Below, in pieces: positions 19,768-20,188 of a stretch of DNA of 43,869 bases. The DNA comes from Lentisphaeria bacterium (GTDB taxonomy: Bacteria > Verrucomicrobiota > Lentisphaeria > Victivallales > Victivallaceae), in contig JAFVYP010000077.1 in NCBI GenBank assembly GCA_017508555.1, positions 1-43,869 on the forward strand, written 5' to 3'. The position numbers and the translations under genes are program-made. The notes under the pieces are model-generated. The model had not been told where the DNA came from, searched no databases, and was given only the letters and a program-made list of their open reading frames with translations. The stretch's first letter is position 1; each line of letters opens with the position of its first letter.

Positions 19768-19960
19768 GCCGCCGGCTCTTTTTGCCGGGCATCGCTCACG
19801 GCAAGCGGTATCGCCGCAAGCGGCGATGTTAATAGCGTTCCGCGTCCCGCGGAACTTACCTTCCGCCGCTTGGAGAGCGGCGGCCAGCGTTCCGCCGCTG
19901 GATCACGTCCGGGTAGCACCCGGGGGCGAATATTTTTTATTTTTTTGTTTGGTTCCCTCC
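19768..19960. repeat. Hairpin-array repeat, copy 1 (193 bp)
   Basis: This is the first of two direct copies 228 bp apart. I see only two substitutions between them. Each copy contains a run of small perfect inverted repeats, one after another (listed under copy 2). It lies in the 481-bp gap between the GT2 gene and the peptide-binding protein gene, which holds no convincing gene. A frame is open across both copies on each strand, but it is made of repeat DNA and is rich in Pro, Arg and Ser. Confidence 0.9.
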
Positions 19961-19995
19961 GGCGAGTGCCTCCGCTCAACGCCCGGCAAAAATTC

Positions 19996-20188
19996 GCCGC
20001 CGGCTCTTTTTGCCGGGCATCGCTCACGGCAAGCGGTATCGCCGCAAGCGGCGATGTTAATAGCGTTCCGCGTCCCGCGGAACTTACTTTCCGCCGCTTG
20101 GAGAGCGGCGGCCAGCGTTCCGCCGCTGGATCACGTCCGGGTAGCACCCGGGGGCGGATATTTTTTATTTTTTTGTTTGGTTCCCTCC
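19996..20188. repeat. Hairpin-array repeat, copy 2 (193 bp)
   Basis: Perfect stems in order: TTGCCG/CGGCAA (20010-20032), ATCGCCGC/GCGGCGAT (20038-20055), GTTCCGCG/CGCGGAAC (20065-20083), CCGCCGCT/AGCGGCGG (20091-20111), CCAGCG/CGCTGG (20112-20129) and CCGGGT/ACCCGG (20137-20151). At the junction with copy 1 a further 12-bp stem (19981-19992 with 20007-20018) forms. The right end carries a T-rich tail and overlaps the last codons of the convergent-reading binding-protein gene. Confidence 0.9.

Follow-up and report, generated by a model that had tools for sequence, protein, structure and literature searches.

Among the closest described systems, ERIC elements have an effect on mRNA that depends on their orientation (PMC2229807), and the pneumococcal SPRITE resembles a Rho-independent terminator (PMC10969869). 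The REP palindromes are defined by their tags: GTAG REPs have a palindrome with the GTAG tetranucleotide at its foot, and CGTC REPs combine an unpaired CGTC tag with a stem of 8–9 bp beginning with A-T pairs and with a CCA tail (PMC3733652). This study analyzed a window of 43,869 nucleotides from a Lentisphaeria bacterium (contig JAFVYP010000077.1), in which a hairpin array was identified as belonging to a new family, whose unusual feature is its polarity at gene ends. A relevant description of such repeats in Lentisphaerae or Victivallales was not found in PubMed Central, the coverage of which is incomplete, and Rfam 15 yielded no family above the gathering score, the best match reaching 23.2 bits against a cut-off of 45.

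The array consists of two direct copies of 193 nt (19768–19960 and 19996–20188), which lie 228 bp apart and are 99% identical, with exactly two mismatches (19860 C versus 20088 T, and 19929 A versus 20157 G) and six perfect stems per copy; on these points, the recomputed alignment and stem coordinates confirmed the original prediction. The predicted folding of the array exceeded that of all 100 dinucleotide shuffles on either strand (z of -4.5 and -4.7). The two copies occupy the gap between two minus-strand genes, namely the neighboring gene for a family 5 solute-binding protein (PF00496, 20165–21961) and, next downstream, the gene for a family 2 glycosyltransferase (PF00535, 18949–19668), and the TAA stop of the former falls within the T-rich tail of copy 2. 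Neither terminal repeats nor a target duplication were recognizable around the window copies.

Read on the plus strand, copy 1 (19768–19960) is truncated at its 5' side, with a core of 93.8 bits in the covariance model at 19862–19942. Copy 2 is the more complete element, spanning 19962–20188 with the 5' domain included, as revealed by end-to-end alignment with complete elements of other species; the alignment with full-length elements from two genera runs end to end over positions 19962–20169, and the core scored 94.2 bits at 20090–20170. A 12-bp stem at 19981–20018, in which 19981–19992 pairs with 20007–20018, had been described as forming only at the junction of the copies. This stem exists, but it is not a product of the duplication, as relatives have the same hairpin in the same position (for example, GCCCCGATAAAA..TTTTATCGGGGC in the sister genus G127); therefore, this is the full element's first hairpin, hereafter hairpin A, and copy 1 is without its 5' arm. 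The remaining plus-strand features are given for copy 2, with copy 1 in brackets. A TTGCC..GGCAA stem lies at 20010–20032 (19782–19804), and hairpin B, with covarying pairs of alignment columns 78–83 with 94–99, at 20038–20055 (19810–19827). Hairpin C, longer in the window than in most relatives, occupies 20065–20083 (19837–19855), hairpin D 20091–20111 (19863–19883), and hairpin E, with the loop TTCCGC, 20112–20129 (19884–19901). Hairpin F, in which five of six pairs are changed on both sides among relatives, lies at 20137–20151 (19909–19923), and the T-rich tail, which in relatives is the start of the transposon right end, at 20161–20175 (19933–19947).

Covariance modeling across copies bore out the idea of a structured repeat. 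Among 37 copies, 98.7% of the pair cells of the core stems were paired, and 10 of the 19 core pairs were changed on both sides, compared with 4.0 in shuffles; none of 500 shuffles was as good, and slid controls collapsed. In the full-length alignment, RNAalifold found compensatory change in 15 of 32 pairs, and hairpin A showed 20 distinct arm pairs among 24 full-length elements. The pairing that RNAalifold suggested for the conserved AYCACGTC linker rests on one-sided changes, and the GU and AC counts in the stems (47 versus 28) do not settle the strand of function. In columns 54–68 of alignment A1, we observed that the loop of hairpin F co-varies with the bases after it (AGCA with GGCAGA, ACGA with GCGA), with no pairing that fits all cases.

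In the host assembly (229 contigs, approximately 77% complete), the complete 193-bp unit was found only at the window locus, and the core family was represented by one locus plus weak matches. Uniqueness, which would leave a mere local duplication, holds solely for this complete unit within the host assembly, as the core is dispersed, multicopy, and covarying in relatives. Unit positions of approximately 94–183 matched many loci in the same genus, G008, G010, G012, and G015 each having between 20 and 26, and in the search with the core covariance model, copy numbers reached 49 in G010 and 40 in G012. At E ≤ 1e-7, this model detected the core in 46 of 137 genomes of the order, representing 18 of 48 genera; many relatives are draft genomes, in which copies close to contig ends are under-represented. 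The family is multicopy, structured, and intergenic in relatives. No members were found in the viral contigs searched. The exact pattern of stem C had six scattered matches in public genomes of unrelated organisms, which were taken as chance.

Intact copies in relatives measure 230–260 bp and are bounded by GGCTSTGTAC terminal inverted repeats, with target duplications of 8 bp. The single-cargo copies of G010 comprise 232–260 bp between GGCTCTGTACTAAAAG-like terminal repeats, which places them within the 70–300 bp of MITEs, and they have no coding capacity; the 8-bp target duplications in this genome are perfect in L041 (TTCCCAAA) and L142 and have one mismatch in L045, L053, and L139. Terminal inverted repeats also occur in G017, where the duplication of L182 is perfect (AAAACATT), and in G127, the copies of which are a young family with perfect 8-bp duplications (AAAAATAT, AAATTTAA, and AATTTTTT in L224, L228, and L242). 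Multiple dispersed copies, a further property of MITEs, are likewise present in relatives. Only a left-end remnant was found in G001, and most copies of G012 and G015, like those of the window, are without terminal repeats.

The relative G010 also contains an ISL3 transposase gene (PF01610, E = 3.5e-68), the TGA stop of which is followed by AGATGCTTTTTTTATTTTTCAGTTCTCTTTTAGGACACGGCC, matching the MITE right end AGATTTCTTTTTTTATTTTTCAGTTCTCTTTTCGTACAGAGCC (0 of 5000 shuffles as good). The T-rich stretch and terminus come directly after this gene, which stands where the hairpins sit in the MITE; the copy runs off the contig end, and the match covers the right end, the left end lying beyond the contig. 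As this ISL3 gene ends in the same right terminus, the simplest reading of the sequences is that the family is a MITE from an ISL3-type insertion sequence, with the hairpin array replacing the transposase. The 8-bp target duplications and the terminal repeats starting with GG fit ISL3. IS1595 is another family with 8-bp duplications; it was considered as the parent and was absent from the genus genomes searched. The ISL3 copy of G127 (L244) did not have these terminal repeats. The clustered REP-like repeat initially suggested held as a multicopy, structured, intergenic family with compensatory stem changes, but, owing to the terminal repeats, 8-bp duplications, and ISL3-type right end of intact relatives, it is a MITE derivative and not a REP. 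Judged from these comparisons, the window copies are decayed, doubled relics of a small non-coding mobile element, both termini of which are lost.

At an orthologous operon, only a few bases separate the stop codon and the next ATG in G008, an insert containing the core is present in G004 and G020, G015 has an outer repeat with a different cargo, and other relatives have neither insert nor outer repeat. This presence and absence indicates that the elements come and go between species. The inserts of G004 and G020 are approximately 97–98% identical, compared with roughly 70–85% for the flanking genes, a difference that suggests recent transfer, conversion, or strong constraint. Several rearranged forms were also observed. 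The outer repeat, with CCCCGAACCCC..GGGGTTCGGGG arms, encloses cargo that differs between species (L090/L094 and L209, L212, L216). In G010, a second cargo lies inside the same terminal repeats (L139, L142, L147, L151), where TTGGTTACTTTC..GAAAGTAAC and CTTACTTCTTTTC..GAAAAGAAGTAAG hairpins are joined to the shared 3' end, which suggests an exchange of internal modules; at about 16200 of contig C10 of this genome, two terminal repeats stand almost back to back near an apparent tRNA gene (GGCTCTGTACTGAAAGAAGACAGAGCC, L143), probably as a deletion remnant. Unrelated repeated segments, several in tandem, replace the middle of the element between conserved ends in G015 (L067, L068) and G012 (L073, L076, L078), and in G008 (L081–L084), perfect hairpins of very small size (GTGCCTTGCGGCAC, GCCGCCTGCGGCGGC, CGCCTTCGGCG) are arranged in tandem fields, in which family cores are embedded.

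Using gene calls from a home-made hexamer-based gene finder, the T-rich end was found to face the 3' end of a gene at 78 of 86 loci of the genus (p = 1.5e-15; 49 of 54 without G010), compared with 28 of 84 for the opposite side of the element, and at 16 of 20 loci in G127. For about half of the faced stop codons in the genus, the distance to the core is no more than 30 nt, the codon often falling in the A/T-rich tract, which is also the case in the window, and several elements sit just past an intrinsic terminator. Family f2, the copies of which are mostly without the tail, showed no orientation bias (12 of 21).

We consider it probable that an ISL3-derived MITE spread in trans and that its copies were retained in one orientation by a directional block of transcription. 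The ISL3 transposase would have acted in trans to spread the element, and the hairpin array followed by the T-run would obstruct transcription in a terminator-like manner and one way only, from the hairpins to the T-rich end. A copy whose blocked direction leads into the 5' side of a gene would switch this gene off and be lost, and a copy pointing against a gene 3' end would be tolerated and persist; with such a one-way block, only copies oriented against the neighboring gene would survive. As a secondary effect, retained copies may protect the end of the gene against antisense transcripts, and the A-rich stretch after the stop codon would keep the first hairpin at least approximately 10 nt from the terminating ribosome. 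Under a looser rule, a hairpin plus T-run was found on the plus strand in 69 of 90 elements and on the opposite strand in 2, an asymmetry that is partly built in because the T-run is on one side only; on the gene strand, an A-rich leader precedes the hairpins and no T-run comes after them. A strict terminator scan (stem with a T-run within 0–2 nt) did not flag hairpin F, the spacer of which to the T-run is mostly 6–7 nt, and its two matches equaled the shuffle expectation. A sigma-70 promoter in the left end of the element was not above shuffles. A further-reaching interpretation, which we put forward tentatively, is that of a gene-end module that is portable and works one way: an insertion sequence may have swapped its transposase for a hairpin array, and bacteria of this order may have adopted it repeatedly after stop codons, where it would serve as a functional 3' untranslated region or insulate against antisense transcription, with its stems under selection across genera.

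The orientation data bear on two possible alternatives. The elements might be kept for a positive role as portable 3' untranslated regions: transcripts arriving from the gene would fold into hairpins directly after the stop, which would hold up 3'-to-5' exonucleases and determine how stable the mRNA is, an effect reported for REP and ERIC; their fixed position behind stop codons and the compensatory changes that maintain the stems agree with this, as do the action of ERIC on upstream transcripts in an orientation-dependent manner (PMC2229807) and a bias that is nearly complete (61:4, genus pooled with G127) in copies without the right terminal repeat. Nevertheless, a symmetric hairpin barrier needs no fixed orientation, the insertions are species-specific, and eight examined relatives lack the core at the orthologous operon; we consider this explanation conceivable, though not likely. 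Somewhat more doubtful is the idea that orientation is set at insertion by an ISL3-type transposase that targets gene ends or terminators in a defined direction. Copies whose right terminal repeat is intact already show the bias (33:8 in the same pooled set), several copies lie just beyond intrinsic terminators, and the right end of the G010 ISL3 copy is also directed toward the host gene end; however, the bias looks weaker in copies with than in those without this repeat (Fisher p = 0.056), which suggests later sorting, and the target duplications are A/T-rich with no obvious polarity.

Other explanations concern the origin of the array. Clustered palindromes downstream of genes, in many copies per genome, would be expected of a REP/BIME cluster mobilized by a RAYT (Y1 tyrosine transposase), but the RAYT link raised by the original prediction did not hold up, as no Y1 transposase was found in six carriers including the host (G000, G010, G012, G015, G018, G020), and terminal repeats with 8-bp duplications are foreign to the RAYT mechanism. 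GTAG is confined to a variable loop, and, although CGTC is invariant in A1, the six-pair stem includes the last C of the tag and starts with G-C pairs, with no CCA tail (PMC3733652); this origin is thus very improbable. Even less credence is given to a retroelement or an integron attC-type recombination site behind stop codons: the conserved 3' end with a variable T-rich tail, the frequent loss of the 5' part, and the position right behind genes are reminiscent of one, but a reverse transcriptase domain was not found in G000, G008, G010, G012, G017, and G020, the copies are dispersed rather than in one cassette array, and the target duplications have a fixed length of 8 bp. Equally hard to credit is a mere local tandem duplication of ordinary intergenic sequence, which the restriction of the complete unit to one place in the host assembly would favor, and which is refuted as a full explanation by homologous elements, matching end to end, in many species and genera; the tandem duplication at the window locus is local and secondary.

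The family links gene 3' ends with MITEs and with clustered palindromes, three things that are usually separate. An operon that carries the insert in some genomes and lacks it in others, together with the many insertion orientations, provides a natural experiment on whether directional transcription control acts as a filter on small mobile elements or is a task for which they are recruited. Concerning known systems, the REP/BIME repeats of the GTAG and CGTC families (PMC3733652) likewise consist of clustered palindromes, which are mainly located downstream of genes and in spacers flanked by convergent or unidirectional genes, but the family described here has no RAYT link, a much longer unit, and terminal repeats in relatives, and does not follow the tag and stem rules. 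BOX and SPRITE of pneumococcus (PMC10969869) are similarly modular, nested, and hairpin-rich, but they differ in organism and sequence, and the present family has an ISL3 end and no boxA/B/C modules. The ERIC, RUP, Correia (NEMIS), and YPAL MITEs (PMC2229807, PMC10969869) share the size of 100–300 bp, the non-coding, intergenic character, the RNA hairpins, the terminal repeats, and the target duplications, and in ERIC orientation matters as well; in contrast, our family is unrelated to them in sequence and has five to seven separate hairpins, a near-exclusive polarity to gene 3' ends, and an ISL3 right end. Finally, ISL3 insertion sequences and derived MITEs have in common with this family the 8-bp duplications and, in a relative, a PF01610 transposase with the same right end, but here a hairpin array stands in place of the transposase, the window copies are without both termini, and of the putative parent the right end is the part that the contig covers.
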